NCBI GenBank assembly: GCA_017998095.1
Contig: JAGODU010000236.1
Span: forward strand, 1 to 5,587
DNA: 5,587 nt
Direction: 5' to 3'
From: Prolixibacteraceae bacterium
Lineage (GTDB): Bacteria > Bacteroidota > Bacteroidia > Bacteroidales > Prolixibacteraceae
Position numbers and translations under genes: made by a program. This document shows positions 668 through 5,556 of this stretch, one piece after another (within the stretch, counting starts at the first letter, position 1; every line of letters starts with the position of its first letter). The notes under the pieces are model-generated. The model ran no database searches. It saw only the letters and a list, made by a program, of their open reading frames with translations, and had not been told where the DNA came from.

Positions 668-1399
668 ATGAAGAAGATATTTACAATAGGATTGATGCTA
701 TCTCAACTACTAATGTGCAGTCACGCTTTGATTAGTAAAGATAGTTTAACTAACAAGGACGGAATTGAAAAAAAAGAATATGTGGGCATGTATGCTGGAA
801 AATATGAAGGAGAAGTGTTAAATGGAAAAGCCCACGGAAAAGGAAAAGTGACTACCAATCGCGGAGATGTTTTTGAAGGAACATTTGTAAACGGTGATGG
901 AGAGGGTTTCTTTATTGTAAAGTACATAGAGGGTGATAGATTTGAGGGTAAGTTCACTAAAGGGGTTGCGGAAGGAAAAGGAAAGTACTTCTGGCCTGAA
1001 GGAGACAGGTATGAAGGAGAATATAAAGACGGTAAAAAAAATGGTTATGGAATATTTTATTATGCTAATGGTGCTAGGTATGAAGGGGAATTTAAAGAAG
1101 GATTAAAGCATGGAAAGGGAAAGTATTTTTATGAAAATGGAGAATATTATGAAGGAGAGTTTCATAAAGATCAAAAGTGCGGTAAGGGGGTGTATATCTG
1201 GCCTAGCGGAAGTAAATATATTGGAGAATATAAGAATGGCAAATGGCATGGTTTGGGAACAAAGTACGATCCGAATGGTGCATATTTTACGGGAGAATTT
1301 GTAAACGGGAAACCTCATGGATACGGTAGAGTTTTCGATAAAGATGGAAAGCTTATAACAAAAGGTGTTTGGGAAAACGGCGCATATAAAGGCAAATAA
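668..1399 (+). CDS. Secreted MORN-repeat protein
   Basis: Residues 1-20 form a signal peptide: KK at the N-terminus, a hydrophobic core (IFTIGLMLSQLLM), then SHA followed by L21, a good signal peptidase I site. Cys17 is preceded by Met and is not a convincing lipobox. From residue 46 the protein is eight MORN repeats in exact 23-residue register, starting at 46, 69, 92, 115, 138, 161, 184 and 207. Each follows the pattern YEGEFKNGKxHGKGxYxYxNGxx. A ninth partial unit (TKGVWENGAYKGK) closes the protein. MORN repeats form an elongated beta-hairpin sheet that commonly binds proteins or lipids. No catalytic domain is attached. The start is fixed by the AGGAGA site overlapping the upstream stop, and the DUF3467-like gene follows 18 bases downstream, so this is the middle gene of a probable three-gene operon. 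Export to the periplasm or cell surface is inferred. The partner is unknown; an immunity or scaffold role is possible but unsupported. Confidence 0.9.
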   Translation: MKKIFTIGLMLSQLLMCSHALISKDSLTNKDGIEKKEYVGMYAGKYEGEVLNGKAHGKGKVTTNRGDVFEGTFVNGDGEGFFIVKYIEGDRFEGKFTKGVAEGKGKYFWPEGDRYEGEYKDGKKNGYGIFYYANGARYEGEFKEGLKHGKGKYFYENGEYYEGEFHKDQKCGKGVYIWPSGSKYIGEYKNGKWHGLGTKYDPNGAYFTGEFVNGKPHGYGRVFDKDGKLITKGVWENGAYKGK

Positions 1400-1417
1400 A
1401 AATAAGGAAAAACCGAC

Positions 1418-1606
1418 ATGGCAAAAGACAAAGAAGACAAGTTGAAAGCAAACGAAGTAAATATACCGGAAGTATACGGGAATGTAGCAAACATAAGTTA
1501 CAGCCCTTACGAGATGGAAATGACGCTAGGTTTAATAAGCAGTAATTATGAAGGCATCAAGCCTGTGGTGAATGTGAGAATGAGTCCGCTCTCCTCTCCT
1601 ATGTAA
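1418..1606 (+). CDS. DUF3467-like small protein, truncated by an inserted element
   Basis: This reads as a 62-residue protein, with AAGGA at 1404-1408 as ribosome binding site nine bases upstream. After a charged N-terminus (MAKDKEDKLKANE) it carries the hallmarks I associate with the DUF3467 family: VYGNVANISYSPYEMEM, then after a variable loop VNVRMSP. Family members continue into a C-terminal helix ending in a N-[IV]-x-x-Y-E motif; here the frame stops at TAA 1604-1606 just after MSPLSSPM. That stop is the first triplet of the repeat element at about 1604-1752, and the expected helix is found directly behind the element. The open frame is therefore the N-terminal 62 residues of an ancestral protein of about 86 residues. 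DUF3467 has no established function that I know of. Without the C-terminal helix this product is probably inactive, unless the element is removed or bypassed. Confidence 0.75.
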   Translation: MAKDKEDKLKANEVNIPEVYGNVANISYSPYEMEMTLGLISSNYEGIKPVVNVRMSPLSSPM

Positions 1607-1752
1607 ATTATTTATATTCTCAGCGAACTTCCTGTCCGCTTCGAACTCAATATAGAGTTAATTGTTCGCACCATTCTCCGAGGAAAATGTTGCGTTCTCC
1701 TGCTGGGAGCTGAAGCTCCCCTCGCAGGCAATGTTTCTACATCCTGTAGAAA
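1604..1752 (+). repeat. Structured insertion element, copy A, inside the DUF3467-like gene
   Basis: This ~149-bp block interrupts the small gene exactly between codons ATG (1601-1603) and CTG (1753-1755). It aligns almost without gaps to a second copy at 2215-2365; both homologous blocks span 151 bases when one flanking base is counted on each side. The AT-rich left end leads into CTCAGCGAACTTCCT, shared by both copies. The right half folds into two hairpins. The first is CCTGC (1699-1703) with GCAGG (1724-1728), enclosing GGGAGC/GCTCCC with loop TGAA. The second is GTTTCTACA (1733-1741) with TGTAGAAAC (1745-1753). No direct repeat of the target flanks the joined sequence. The element has no coding capacity, so it would need factors in trans if mobile. 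A non-autonomous palindromic transposon relic (for example of an IS200/IS605-like system, which makes no target duplication) and an intron- or bypass-like RNA are the alternatives I consider. Confidence 0.7.
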
Positions 1753-1827
1753 CTGGCAAAGATATTATTGATAAACGTAGAGAAGTATGAACAGCAGATA
1801 ATGAAGCTGGACATGAAGAAGCAGTAA
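1753..1827 (+). pseudogene. Detached C-terminal part of the DUF3467-like gene
   Basis: Immediately after the inserted element, the frame beginning at CTG 1753 reads LAKILLINVEKYEQQIMK and continues LDMKKQ to a TAA at 1825-1827. It follows an in-frame TAG at 1747-1749 inside the element and has no start codon or ribosome binding site of its own, so it is not an independent gene. The NVEKYE segment matches the N-[IV]-x-x-Y-E end of the DUF3467 family. If base 1603 is joined to base 1753, exactly 16 residues separate the SP of MSP from YE, the same spacing I recall for the family (from memory, not checked). The restored protein would have 86 residues. Confidence 0.7.
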
Positions 1828-1830
1828 TTT

Positions 1831-1854
1831 AACCGGCGCCGAAAGGCGCCGGTT
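1831..1854 (+). repeat. Perfect GC-rich hairpin just behind the ancestral stop
   Basis: AACCGGCGCC (1831-1840) pairs perfectly with GGCGCCGGTT (1845-1854) around a GAAA loop. It starts three bases after the TAA that ended the intact DUF3467-like gene. The position suggests an operon terminator, but the bases that follow (GTAGTATAAG) contain no T-run. It could instead be an mRNA 3'-end stabiliser or another member of the GAA-loop palindromes downstream. Confidence 0.7.
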
Positions 1855-1930
1855 GTAGTATAAGAAGATCATTGAAAACACGGGAAAGCTGAAATAGAAA
1901 AAGCTGAGTGAATAGGAAAAGAATTTAAAC

Positions 1931-1949
1931 TATTCGGCGAAGCCGAATA
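1931..1949 (+). repeat. Hairpin with GCGAAGC tip
   Basis: TATTCGGC (1931-1938) pairs with GCCGAATA (1942-1949) around a GAA loop. Its tip, bases 1937-1943, is GCGAAGC, a sequence known to form an exceptionally stable mini-hairpin as single-stranded DNA. Confidence 0.75.
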
Positions 1950-1963
1950 CAATATAAGCGCAG

Positions 1964-1998
1964 ACTATCGCAGACATTACGAAGTAATGCGCGATAGT
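1964..1998 (+). repeat. Two-tier hairpin with GAA loop
   Basis: The outer stem is ACTATCGC (1964-1971) with GCGATAGT (1991-1998). The inner stem is CATTAC (1975-1980) with GTAATG (1984-1989) around a GAA loop. An asymmetric internal loop (AGA against C) separates them, the same general plan as the two-tier hairpins in the element copies. The 10-bp palindrome TGTCGCGACA follows at 2001-2010. Confidence 0.75.
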
Positions 1999-2029
1999 TC
2001 TGTCGCGACAAAAAGCCGGGTAGGGATTT

Positions 2030-2070
2030 CAAAAGGGACAGGGCTGGCGACTGAAGCCCTGTCCCTTTTG
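2030..2070 (+). repeat. Sixteen-base-pair perfect hairpin
   Basis: CAAAAGGGACAGGGCT (2030-2045) pairs perfectly with 2055-2070 around a nine-base loop. It is the longest uninterrupted stem in the hairpin region. Because it is flanked by A-runs on one side and T-runs on the other, it could act as a bidirectional terminator, but no gene ends nearby. Confidence 0.8.
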
Positions 2071-2076
2071 ATCTTA

Positions 2077-2174
2077 TCGCATGAGACCATGCGAAACCGG
2101 ATTACAAAGGCGAAGCCTTTGATTGTTTTGCATGACACCATGCAAATAACGGATACCAAAGGCGAAGCCTTTGA
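2077..2174 (+). repeat. Tandem pair of two-hairpin units
   Basis: Two related units, 2077-2122 and 2128-2174, each hold a CATG hairpin followed by a CAAAGGC-GAA-GCCTTTG hairpin. In unit 1 the first stem is TCGCATG/CATGCGA with loop AGAC. In unit 2 it is TTTGCATG/CATGCAAA with loop ACAC, so a C:G pair has become T:A on both sides. The second hairpins (2105-2121 and 2157-2173) are identical and both contain GCGAAGC. A further small hairpin, CCTGA/TCAGG, follows at 2182-2194. Confidence 0.8.
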
Positions 2175-2214
2175 AAGTATGCCTGACTCTCAGGAGAATT
2201 TATTGTTGAAATCA

Positions 2215-2365
2215 GTTTATTATTTTTATTCTCAGCGAACTTCCTATTCGCTTCGAATGAGACTTTAAATTGATTTAACGCACCAATCTATGAGGTAACG
2301 CTTGCGTTTTCCCGCTATGGTCTTCGACCATCTCGCGGGCAATGTTTCCGCCTCCGTGCGGAAAC
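2215..2365 (+). repeat. Structured element, copy B
   Basis: This is a diverged direct-orientation copy of the element inserted in the DUF3467-like gene. Shared primary sequence includes TTCTCAGCGAACTTCCT, CGCTTCGAA, GCGTT and the CAATGTTTC linker. The hairpins occupy equivalent places: CCCGC (2311-2315) with GCGGG (2335-2339) enclosing ATGGTC/GACCAT around TTC, then GTTTCCGC (2344-2351) with GCGGAAAC (2358-2365). The internal loop (T on the left, CTC on the right) is identical to copy A, whereas most stem pairs differ with pairing kept. A left-end hairpin AGCGAA/TTCGCT (2234-2252) is perfect here and has one mismatch in copy A. No interrupted gene is recognisable around this copy. Confidence 0.75.
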
Positions 2366-2470
2366 TGCGTGAGGGATTGCGCGGAAAGGCGGAACGCCTT
2401 GAAGCAAAAGCCCGACCGTGCGTGGACGGTCAGAGAGTAGTGAGAAAGAAAAGAGGCACGGGCACGCCCG
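2366..2470 (+). repeat. Hairpin tail downstream of copy B
   Basis: These 105 bp directly follow copy B, have no counterpart behind copy A, and carry three more stems: AAGGCG/CGCCTT with GAA loop (2386-2400), GACCGT/ACGGTC (2414-2431) and CGGG/CCCG with loop CACG (2459-2470). They may be the remainder of a longer form of the element or a separate one. The reading frame through it from 2302 to 2496 is judged non-coding. Confidence 0.6.
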
Positions 2471-2496
2471 GATTAAAAATATATTTCATATTTTGA

Positions 2497-2502
2497 TATA
2501 AT
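2497..2502 (+). promoter_or_regulatory. Candidate -10 box of the peptidase gene
   Basis: TATAAT, a perfect consensus -10 hexamer, lies in AT-rich sequence about 100 bases before the peptidase start and just after the hairpin tail. No good -35 hexamer is found at the right spacing, so the call rests on the -10 box and its position. It would give a leader of roughly 90 bases. Confidence 0.4.
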
Positions 2503-2601: not shown

Positions 2602-5556
2602 ATGAAGGGTTTCTTTTTGCCTAATCGAAAAATATTTTCATGTCTAATTGTTTTTTCAGTTTTAATTTCTAACGCATGTGGCGGAGGAGGCGGCGGAGGC
2701 GGTGATGATGACGGCGGAAATCCTCCTGATAAAACTGCTCCGGTAATAATTTCAACGAATCCTGTTTCAGGAGCAGTTAATGTTCCATCAAACACTTCAG
2801 TTACGGTGACTTTTGATGAAATGATTCTTGAAAGTTCAGTCTCTTCGGACTGTGTCGCTGTTTCAGATGGTTCAAATGATTTAGACGGAAGTATCGCATT
2901 GTCTGATGACAAAAAAACGATAACTTTTACACCTTCCGGTGATATGGATTTTGATACAAGTTATACCGTGGAAATCGAAGCAGGCATTTCCGATCTTGCA
3001 GGCAATAAACTTGTTTCGAATAGTAATAATATTTTTTCTTTTACAACCGGATCTGCTCCGGATAATACTCCTCCTTCAGTTACAGTAAGTCCAGTTGATA
3101 ACGCTTCAGGAGTTTCCGTAGGCACAGATATTCTTCTGACTTTTAATGAAGCGATGATGGTATCAACAATAAATTCCACTAATATCAAACTATTGAAAAA
3201 CGGAGTCGAAGTTCCTTCTGCAATAACATATGATTCCGGAGTATTTGCTGCTAAAATTAATCCTTCAAGCGATATGGATTTTCTTCAGTCATATACTATA
3301 AGTGTTTCAACCGGTATTTCGGACATGGCAGGAAACCATCCGGTTTCGAATTTTTCATCCGTATTTAAAACTGCGGTAGATACTACGCCGCTTACTCTGA
3401 GTTCTCATGTTCCTGCTTCAAACGCGGTAAATGTTGCAAAAGGCTCAAATATCACGGCAACTTTTTCAAAACGAATCGACCCCGCAACCGTTATTTCATC
3501 GAATGTATACATTGTTAAGACCTCTGACGCATCTCCAGTTTCTGCTGAGTTAACTTATGATGATTCGACAAAAACAATTACGATTGATCCTGTGTCTGAT
3601 TTAGAAGCAGAATCTACTCAATATACTGTTACTGTAAATACGGGAATAAAAGGTATTTCCGGTAATCTTCTTTCTTCTTCAGTTAGCTGGAATTTTAAAA
3701 CAACTGATACAACCGGTCCGATTGTAAGTTCAACATCTCCAGTTAACATGGCAACAAATGTTTCTGTTTCAAACGGATTTTCAATCACATTCAGCGAACC
3801 TATCAATACGGCAACAATTACTTCATCGAATATTTCGGTTAAAGATTCTTTAAATAATTCTGTTGCCGGAACCTTTGCCTACGACAGCTCTACTATGACA
3901 GCGACATGGAAGCCTTCCTATAATCTTAACTATCAAACAGAATATACGGTTTCAATAGGTACAGGTATTAAAGATGTAACCGGAAATTCTATGAATTCGG
4001 CGTCATCATTTTCATTTAATACAAAAGAAAGATGCTGGACGATTATGTATTACGGTGATGCCGATTGCAATCTGGAAGCTGCAATAATGAATGACATAGC
4101 AGAAATGAAGAGCGGATATGTTAACGATCAGGGGCTTGATCTGGTAACACTTGTTGACAGACATCCTTATTCAACTTTGGCAAATGGATATAGTGCGGAT
4201 TCAACAACTCTTGGTGCAAATTTTGCAGATACAAGATTGTTTCGCATAACTAACGGAAAAGCAGAACGTATCGGCGGTTCTTCACAGATGCCTTCCATTA
4301 CGACAACATCATCATATGAAGTGAATATGGGAGATGCGGAAACACTTAAAAGCTTTATCGAATTTTGTAAGGCTAATTATCCTGCAAAAAATTATGCGCT
4401 TATATTGTCAAATCACGGCGGCGGAGCTAAAAGTGCAGGAAAGTCTAAATCTTATAAAGAAATTGCAAATTCTAAAAAGATTAAAAGCGGAATTTCAAAA
4501 GAAATCTGTTATGATGAAACCAGTTCGGATGATTTCATCCATACAGCAGAAATTTCGGATGTTTTAACTTCAGCTGAGTCTGTGAATCTTTTCGGCCTTG
4601 ATGCTTGTTTGATGTCTTCTGTTGAGTTTGCTTATCAGTTCCGCGATCATACTTCAAATACAGGTTTTAAGGCTTCAATTATGGTTGCATCTGCTCCTTT
4701 AGAATGGGATTCCGGATGGGCATATAATAAAATATTGACAAGACTTAAATCGGGCGTCGGAAATAATGGAGAGAGCGATACTCTTGTCGGGGGGAATGAA
4801 CTTTATTATGATCCGGCGACACTTACGGCTTCTCAGCTAGGAGGAGTCATTGTAGAAGAACAATATGATTCGACTTGGACCAATACAAGTCAGTCCTTGA
4901 CCTGCATTGATATGTCAAAAGTTTATGAAGTCAAAACTAAAATGGATGCATTATCTGTTAAATTCGCCGCGGACAGTTCTTCAAAAAGTAAAGTTGAAAC
5001 TTTGCGCAGAGTTGATAATACGGCAAAGCTTCTTCATTATTTTGATGATACTTTGCTTGAAAATGTTTCAGGTGCGTATGGATATGCCGGATATACTGAT
5101 TGGTTAGATTATCCTTTCTTTGACATTTATAATTTGTCAGATGCGATATTGTTAAGCTCGAGTTTCACAAATGATTTGAGAGTAAGTGCCGTAAGTCTTA
5201 ATACTGCTGTAAGTAATATGGTTCTGTATTCATTCGGGAATGATGACTTTGCGGATTTTGTTCCAAATTCAAGCGGTGTTCATATCTTTTTTCCTTATGG
5301 AGATGATTTTTTCTTCAAAGACTCAGACGGAAATGGCTCGCATGATATGGCAGCACCTCATTGGTTTTTCCAGGATTGGTATAATGCTCTTGATGTTTCT
5401 TCAATGTATACAAAAGCACCTCTTGGTAAATTGTCATGGTGTATTGACGGCAGAAACACCGCGGTAAATGCTGTAGGTAACTGGTTTGAACTATTGGACA
5501 GCTGGTATGATCTTTCAAATGATGCCGACGGCGGAATGAATTATTATCAATGGTAA
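2602..5556 (+). CDS. Surface lipoprotein with four Ig-like Big_5 domains and a clostripain (C11) peptidase
   Basis: Residues 1-25 are a lipoprotein signal peptide with positive charges (NRK) and a hydrophobic core; Cys26 in ISNAC is the likely lipidated residue, with Ile at -4 rather than -3. A linker of eight glycines, three aspartates and two glycines (27-39) follows. Four Big_5 (SbsA-like Ig) domains occupy about 45-149, 154-258, 260-368 and 369-474, each opening with a P-x-V-like strand and ‘P-x-x-x-A-x-x-V’ and carrying YTVxIxxGIxDxxGN near its end. From about 478 the peptidase begins (CWTIMYYGDADCNLE). Its expected catalytic His605 is in SNHGGG and Cys669 in LDACLMSS, both intact. C11 enzymes cleave after Arg or Lys and often mature by self-cleavage between these two residues; here that interval is rich in Lys. 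The gene stands alone between a candidate promoter and a strong terminator. The inferred role is extracellular or surface proteolysis; the substrate is unknown. Confidence 0.92.
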   Translation: MKGFFLPNRKIFSCLIVFSVLISNACGGGGGGGGDDDGGNPPDKTAPVIISTNPVSGAVNVPSNTSVTVTFDEMILESSVSSDCVAVSDGSNDLDGSIALSDDKKTITFTPSGDMDFDTSYTVEIEAGISDLAGNKLVSNSNNIFSFTTGSAPDNTPPSVTVSPVDNASGVSVGTDILLTFNEAMMVSTINSTNIKLLKNGVEVPSAITYDSGVFAAKINPSSDMDFLQSYTISVSTGISDMAGNHPVSNFSSVFKTAVDTTPLTLSSHVPASNAVNVAKGSNITATFSKRIDPATVISSNVYIVKTSDASPVSAELTYDDSTKTITIDPVSDLEAESTQYTVTVNTGIKGISGNLLSSSVSWNFKTTDTTGPIVSSTSPVNMATNVSVSNGFSITFSEPINTATITSSNISVKDSLNNSVAGTFAYDSSTMTATWKPSYNLNYQTEYTVSIGTGIKDVTGNSMNSASSFSFNTKERCWTIMYYGDADCNLEAAIMNDIAEMKSGYVNDQGLDLVTLVDRHPYSTLANGYSADSTTLGANFADTRLFRITNGKAERIGGSSQMPSITTTSSYEVNMGDAETLKSFIEFCKANYPAKNYALILSNHGGGAKSAGKSKSYKEIANSKKIKSGISKEICYDETSSDDFIHTAEISDVLTSAESVNLFGLDACLMSSVEFAYQFRDHTSNTGFKASIMVASAPLEWDSGWAYNKILTRLKSGVGNNGESDTLVGGNELYYDPATLTASQLGGVIVEEQYDSTWTNTSQSLTCIDMSKVYEVKTKMDALSVKFAADSSSKSKVETLRRVDNTAKLLHYFDDTLLENVSGAYGYAGYTDWLDYPFFDIYNLSDAILLSSSFTNDLRVSAVSLNTAVSNMVLYSFGNDDFADFVPNSSGVHIFFPYGDDFFFKDSDGNGSHDMAAPHWFFQDWYNALDVSSMYTKAPLGKLSWCIDGRNTAVNAVGNWFELLDSWYDLSNDADGGMNYYQW

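Follow-up and report, generated by a model that had tools for sequence, protein, structure and literature searches.

The window (the whole stretch of DNA analysed, 5,587 nt) carries a gene for a MORN-repeat protein, a DUF3467 gene interrupted by a structured repeat of what we call the E family, a second copy of this repeat and a large gene downstream. By scanning the contigs of GTDB genomes with the N-terminal part of the interrupted gene (N-part), we found two loci in which the gene is uninterrupted, L001 and L002, both in the MAG 'Spirochaetota bacterium isolate JPAS_maxbin.043' (G001). The features of the window, with the evidence for each, are as follows:

Start of the window, before the MORN gene, + strand: end of a gene of unknown kind (reading of the open reading frames)
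668..1399, + strand: gene for a MORN-repeat protein (PF02493, 4.6e-39; nucleotide match to L002)
1418..1588, + strand: DUF3467 gene, N-terminal 57 codons, ending in RMSP (91% protein identity to L001 and L002; predicted three-stranded sheet)
1589..1603, + strand: 15 bp read as LSSPM in place of the QFAKE codons (comparison with L001 and L002)
1604..1752, + strand: body of copy 1 of the E-family palindromic element, opening with a TAA stop (matches in G001, 17-copy alignment, covariation)
1622..1640, + strand: E hairpin 1, of the type GCGAAC-TTCCT-GTCCGC, its stem covarying between copies (helix 1, 4/5 pairs changed on both sides)
1699..1728, + strand: E compound hairpin CCTGC..GGGAGC..GCTCCC..GCAGG (helices 3 and 4 of the common structure)
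1733..1753, + strand: E terminal hairpin GTTTCTACATCCTGTAGAAAC, the family's constant right end (flanks diverge after GAAACT; helix 5, 100% paired)
1753..1827, + strand: DUF3467 gene, C-terminal part (C-part, helix), with its stop at 1825-1827 (nucleotide match to the intact loci, codon comparison, model)
2196..2366, + strand: copy 2 of the E family, downstream of the DUF3467 gene in the window and in L002 (no E copy at the corresponding place behind L001, the second gene copy)
2602-5556, + strand: large gene with Big_5 and Peptidase_C11 domains (open reading frame list, profile search)

A DUF3467 gene in two parts

The open reading frame 1418-1606 closes with ...RMSPLSSPM and a TAA (1604-1606), as an earlier, sequence-only reading of the window had noted, and the C-part resumes in frame at 1753 (CTG), reading LAKILLINVEKYEQQIMKLDMKKQ; 23 of its 24 residues are those of L001 and L002, whose proteins run on uninterrupted (...RMSPQFAKELAQILLINVEKYEQQIMKLDMKKQ). 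The arithmetic of that reading also held: 62 and 24 residues make 86, the length of the intact L001 protein, and the 16 residues counted between MSP and YE separate the same motifs in L001. The truncated window protein alone (N-part) matched no Pfam family up to E 10. The intact L001 protein matched PF11950 (DUF3467) at 7.1e-8, with 32.8 bits against a cut-off of 25, in agreement with the proposal that a structured repeat of ~150 bp interrupts a true DUF3467 gene. Relatives in which the stretch 1753-1827 is joined to the gene, for which the sequence-only reading proposed a search, thus exist in the form of L001 and L002.

In L002 the gene order is that of the window, namely the MORN gene, an intact 86-residue DUF3467 gene and the second E copy, and we regard L002 as the orthologous locus because there, too, the MORN gene lies directly upstream of the DUF3467 gene. 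The two loci are 72% identical over 818 nt from the MORN gene into the DUF3467 gene (window 782 to 1589), 92% over the C-part and the DNA that follows, and 88% over the second repeat copy. L001, the other intact copy of the gene, differs in its upstream region. The two G001 copies (L001:5001-5258 and L002:4884-5141) encode an identical protein (86/86 residues) and differ synonymously at 13 of the 57 codons of the N-part, which has no replacement differences, and at 3 of the 25 codons of the C-part; this identity despite synonymous differences would reflect either purifying selection, which would have to be strong, or one copy having been repaired from the other. Compared with L001, the window has 14 synonymous and 5 replacement differences in the 57 codons of the N-part (17 and 5 compared with L002), and 1 of each kind in the 25 codons, stop included, of the C-part. 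Judged from sequence, strong constraint acts on the intact DUF3467 gene. Matches to DUF3467 at E <= 0.01 occurred in 34 of 392 genomes of the phylum; none was confirmed in viral contigs, phages gave no match, and the family has so far hardly been described in the literature.

The left junction proved to differ from the one first proposed. The sequence-only reading had set the left edge at 1603/1604 and predicted a clean ATG|CTG empty site, yet window 1589-1603 (CTCTCCTCTCCTATG) shares only 5/15 bases with L001 and with L002, which share 12/15 with each other, and the intact genes carry here 15 other bases, without an ATG, that encode QFAKE between a proline codon (P57) and a leucine codon (L63). 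Because these 15 bases match the intact genes so poorly, while the flanking gene parts are ~86-92% identical to them, the left breakpoint lies at about 1588/1589, with ~15 bp of the gene exchanged. Since 15 bases stand for 15, the frame is kept across the replaced stretch, and the joined window protein would read LSSPM at the relatives' QFAKE. In an alignment of 17 E copies, the homology of the window copy starts around TAAATTATTT (about 1604), whereas the others extend 15-20 nt further left; the 15 replacing bases may represent a left end of E that is atypical or has diverged, or may be filler. P0001, a protein from another contig, ends in the same LSSPM, and this form is therefore unlikely to be an assembly accident of the window.

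The right edge is ambiguous by a few bases, as the usual end of E, GAAACT, overlaps the gene's own AACTGG. On the left, the supposed coincidence between the limits of homology (1603/1753) and the edges of the insertion does not hold. The absence of a target duplication stands: when the junctions were compared, no direct repeat could be placed at both edges of either copy 1 or copy 2 in the window, and the GGAAA common to the edges of copy 2 in L002 is part of the element's right end. Copy 2 is missing behind L001, where ...ACTCGGGA|GC|GCGTGA.. reads through, in a stretch that is homologous and not strictly orthologous, belonging to the other gene copy and followed by DNA that also differs further right.

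A model of the intact L001 protein (AlphaFold2, 52 sequences, mean pLDDT 80, pTM 0.59) has strands at residues 23-28, 33-40 and 47-55 and a helix at 57-77. The break is thus predicted to delete the C-terminal helix and to spare the sheet, consistent with the assignment of 1753-1827 to this helix: translation would halt at the TAA of E and the product would therefore lack the helix, probably with loss of function. The N-parts of the interrupted genes are very similar to those of intact ones, which fits recent events and fits a still useful truncated protein as well. A PDB fold search with the model gave no match at E <= 0.001. Several PC4/Sub1 single-strand DNA-binding proteins were among the best, non-significant matches (E 0.4 and worse).

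It is scarcely credible that a complete protein is still made from the split gene, with the element bypassed by ribosomes or spliced out of the RNA. Both gene parts are well conserved, as the codon counts against L001 indicate, and the element is strongly folded. However, Rfam gave no intron family, its three matches over the window being sub-threshold (E 0.044 to 0.87) and none of them over 1604-1752; the take-off and landing codons are unmatched (ATG before TAA, AAA before CTG); the product would still hold LSSPM and not QFAKE; and forms of the gene broken by a module called M (described below) enter the element in frame. Nothing we found suggests that the two gene parts are rejoined.

The E family and its nested modules

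Copy 1 (1604-1752) folds far better than its shuffles (z -4.4 on the + strand, -5.7 on the - strand), and so does copy 2 (2216-2365 tested; z -4.2 and -5.0). The second copy had been announced in the sequence-only reading and is real, lying at about 2196-2366 with 74% identity over 98 nt. The 149-nt element had 19 matches in G001. When 98 genomes were searched with copy 2, three matched, namely G001 itself (at least 11 matches), a second genome, G002 (at least 10), and G018 (one doubtful match of 29 nt); these counts are lower bounds, since scoring was limited in most genomes to 8 first-look candidates. The E pattern had 0 occurrences in viral contigs, and plasmids gave no match to E.

We derived a common structure from the 17 aligned copies (window, G001 and G002) and examined covariation in the same alignment. 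Of 388 cells, 96.1% were paired (86.2% in shuffles), and 10 of the 23 pairs had changed on both sides, compared with 6.3 in shuffles (1/500 as high). Cells with two-sided changes numbered 44, against 11.9 in shuffles, and covariation reached 0.336, against 0.138 (0/500 as high; slid controls <= 0.106). The count of further pair types, 16 against 18.3 (473/500 as high), is a measure that does not favour the structure, and helix 2 had no two-sided change. At the right end, every copy found by pattern except L011 has a T directly after the hairpin GTTTC..GAAAC, with differing flanks beyond; some other E copies end in GAAAGT.

The family is a nested one, in that several E copies contain, just left of the terminal hairpin, a second module, M. 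A query of M with the terminal hairpin matched G001 at 32 places and G002 at 9, often over a short length only. In some copies, M and hairpin 1 bear extra hairpins at their tips. The comparison of the window with L002 provided two pairs of filled and empty M sites, one in which an insert of ~70 bp sits at the tip of a hairpin reading CAAAGGCGAAGCCTTTG in the window, and another in which M lies inside an E copy where the window has AT. Longer variants with internal insertions also occur among bacterial MITEs such as ERIC. The two M junction pairs of L002 carry the short direct repeats GAAGC and CAGT, but random pairs share a 4-letter word in 81% and a 5-letter word in 37% of cases (5000 trials, anywhere in 24-nt stretches), and such repeats would be compatible with a short target duplication at M without demonstrating one. 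The first hairpin of several M copies has a constant loop (AACGAT) on a varying stem. Taken together, on sequence grounds, E is a dispersed, nested and probably non-autonomous family of multi-hairpin elements, about 165-170 bp long, in this spirochaete lineage.

We also looked for other genes split by E. At 16 further E copies we joined the flanks and compared the shorter arm of the spanning reading frame with 200 random trims; the measure misses even the case of the window (24 codons, against a control median of 17 and maximum of 54) and is uninformative. By this measure, L041, L020 and copy 2 exceeded the control maximum by one codon each. In the open reading frame lists of two E-copy loci, L006 and L020, a split gene was not seen. 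At L020, at about 1490-1532, an E copy takes in the last codons of a long open reading frame (336-1532, transporter-like by eye), and the element thus supplies the 3' end of that frame.

In the fetched loci, GGA/TCC is found again and again in the loops of hairpins whose stems differ (in one strand as CAGGANG), namely in 20 of 107 three-base loops and 40 of 159 longer ones. Such loops resemble CsrA sites, and CsrA is encoded in G001, G002 and a further genome, G019. A CsrA sponge is nevertheless no better an explanation than a DNA-level reading: the motif occurs in both orientations (by eye), many of the copies are homologous and the loop counts are raw ones.

A recurrent breakpoint in the DUF3467 gene

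A protein search with the 62-residue N-part found 26 proteins. Four of them (P0002, P0004, P0025 and P0026, the latter two without the gene's start) agree with the gene as far as MSPQ and continue with SERSRQ(T/A/K)RRF.., tails that match translations of M from G001 and G002 (tblastn against the fetched loci only; best E 1.3e-9 for P0002, 8e-7 for P0004, 3.5e-18 for P0025 and 3e-11 for P0026). The M junctions in these four are thus deduced from protein. P0026 continues through the terminal hairpin (RQFLHPVET) into a shifted C-part (..DKRREV). When the M tail of P0002 was searched for on other genes, none was found, the 4 matches being P0002, P0026, P0025 and P0004. Against a translated or exapted tail, the M-derived tails vary between proteins and were found on the DUF3467 gene only.

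The E and M forms of the gene in the window's clade may go back to one event with later exchange of modules. In our estimate, a single ancestral insertion whose modules were swapped afterwards, so that E and M would not be separate hits, falls just short of an even chance. P0026, the sole sequence that reaches the right junction, has there the same kind of terminal hairpin as the window, a junction common to the E and M forms that counts against separate hits; moreover, in G001 M lies inside E, directly left of the terminal hairpin. The left junctions, in contrast, differ, with CCG|CTCTCC in the window and, deduced from protein, MSP followed by Q and M in P0002 and others.

Two further genomes have the gene broken beside other repeats. 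In G019 (locus L027, protein P0012), a 111-bp insert follows MSPQFAK (L027:1648-1758, by eye) and precedes EFSNLLQQNVKMFEERF, a junction revealed by comparison with P0020, a similar protein that is intact; the sole other match to the insert in G019 covers 85 nt of it at 96%. Several hundred bp downstream, at L027:2325-2390, lies a second hairpin of the same kind, with a different stem and the same ATCAACCTCATC tail. In G042 (locus L119), only the C-terminal part was found (PQFAKEFSDLLVSNIKLFEERFGDIP..), and CCGCAGTTCGC at 1507 sits 7 nt from the end of homology of a dispersed repeat (11 other matches on 9 contigs); P0050 and P0054 are intact relatives of this gene.

A wider protein search gave 185 matches, of which 120 were listed. 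Among 122 proteins whose tails we inspected by eye, 112 were normal, 7 departed at MSP/QFAK (five of the window's clade, P0009 and P0012) and 3 departed later (P0013, P0067 and P0070). P0009 (MSPQLRRNS), one of the 7, looks like a one-base frameshift, and we did not count it as an element insertion. The breaks beside repeats, in the window, the M forms, G019 and G042, lie within a span of about 25 bp where strand is predicted to give way to helix. By rough arithmetic, the chance that all fall within 24 of 258 nt is about 0.03 with three events and about 0.003 with four; were breaks visible in the last 108 nt alone, it would be about 0.15 and 0.04, respectively. The clustering is only suggestive, because the estimate ranges from about 0.15 to 0.003 with the independence of the events and the region that is visible. 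In these comparisons the DUF3467 gene shows a recurrent breakpoint, next to different palindromic repeats.

The insertion of a dispersed palindromic E repeat into the DUF3467 gene of the window is thus well supported. In all probability it is a non-autonomous element that landed between the MSP and LAK codons, at the recurrent breakpoint, exchanging about 15 bp, leaving no visible target duplication and truncating the product of the gene; the break events may have been independent of one another. Against this account count the atypical left end of the window copy and the failure to find a mobilising enzyme (Y1 transposase) in the draft MAGs G001 and G002.

The main rival to a hotspot at this place is tolerance at a structural boundary: palindromic elements may insert almost anywhere, and in this gene only 3'-proximal breaks between strand and helix survive or are detected, through selection and search bias. 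We give this explanation about an even chance. The break coincides with the predicted start of the C-terminal helix (residue 57), the protein searches used the N-part and would therefore have missed breaks further upstream, and the E copy that overlaps the last codons of the long frame in L020 indicates that the 3' ends of genes accept such elements. However, breaks further downstream in the helix should be equally tolerable, and by eye only P0013, and perhaps P0070, are of this kind, against 7 at MSP/QFAK, among the 122 proteins; this contrast is weakened in turn by the origin of 5 of the 7 in one clade and by the probable frameshift in P0009.

A true target preference, in which the DNA of the gene at the break attracts hairpin elements, seems rather unlikely. 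At the corresponding site L001 reads CAATTC-GCTAAG-GAACTG, a small imperfect inverted repeat resembling the E arms CAGTTTC..GAAACTG; E in the window and M with its terminal hairpin in P0026 have the same right junction; and modules were inserted near hairpin apices elsewhere (window compared with L002; hairpin 1 of L039). Yet the inverted repeat is weaker in L002 and was not seen by eye in the G011, G040 and G041 sequences, and the G019 gene, of a type without it, was broken anyway.

Relation to known repeats and possible mode of movement

Passages of PMC3733652 describe REPs (GTAG/CGTC repeats, BIMEs) as small palindromes in many copies that form mosaics and in part lie inside genes, in all of which E is like them; they also report that REPs have been inserted into small palindromes and that Spirochaetes have CGTC repeats, and define a tagged REP as a palindrome of 20-40 bp with an unpaired GTAG or CGTC at one end. 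E differs in its length of about 170 bp, in its several hairpins and in having no GTAG/CGTC tag at its ends (by eye, 17-copy alignment). The Y1 transposase (PF01797), whose gene accompanies the repeats in a REP/RAYT system, was present in 25 of the 29 genomes searched but gave 0 matches in G001 and G002, both MAGs that are drafts in many contigs.

According to passages of a review (PMC10969869), Rickettsia palindromic elements (RPEs) are in-frame inserts that are translated with the protein. E resembles them as a palindromic element of similar length within a protein gene, but its frame is closed in the window (TAA at 1604) and that of P0026 is shifted. Bacterial MITEs such as ERIC and Correia are, in the same review, short and dispersed, and E shares these traits. 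Unlike DDE-type MITEs, however, E has ends, (G)AATTT.. and ..GAAACT, that are not inverted repeats (by eye, 17-copy alignment), and it shows no target duplication at its two sites; at M, with GAAGC and CAGT at the junctions of L002, a short duplication may have occurred. The review (PMC10969869) also treats the hns gene of Acinetobacter baumannii, which is under stress in that one species, as a hotspot for insertions. There, as here, one gene is struck repeatedly by different elements; here, in contrast, different genomes are involved and the breaks are confined to about 25 bp in a small conserved gene.

E therefore fails those defining features of MITEs, tagged REPs and RPEs that were tested, and is a new family of a known broad kind, the palindromic repeats; among the titles and abstracts listed in literature searches, none dealt with the E family or with interruptions of DUF3467. 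The data on E speak against classical MITEs and would fit a hairpin-type, single-strand movement. Its spread may have been transposon-like, via single-stranded hairpins and with an enzyme supplied in trans.

It is conceivable, though improbable in our view, that the strand-to-helix junction of DUF3467 in spirochaetes is a genuine docking site. Several unrelated palindromic families would then enter independently within the same 25 bp, through a single-strand reaction with a preference for small palindromes, whose loop it would exchange, and the helix-less form may persist because it is of use. The way in which small bacterial palindromic repeats that lack a transposase move, and the targets they seek, have long been an open question; the filled and empty sites of nested hairpin modules, together with one small gene broken beside different families, offer concrete junctions at which a hairpin-targeting mechanism can be tested.

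Of note, window 1831-2500, like L002:5145-6050 and L099, is an intergenic mosaic of differing hairpin modules. Such modules are gained and lost among close relatives, some of them at the tips of other hairpins. Within this part of the window, a perfect 17-bp inverted repeat (TCAAAAGGGACAGGGCT) with a loop of 9 nt lies at 2029-2071 and is kept in L001 with one change.
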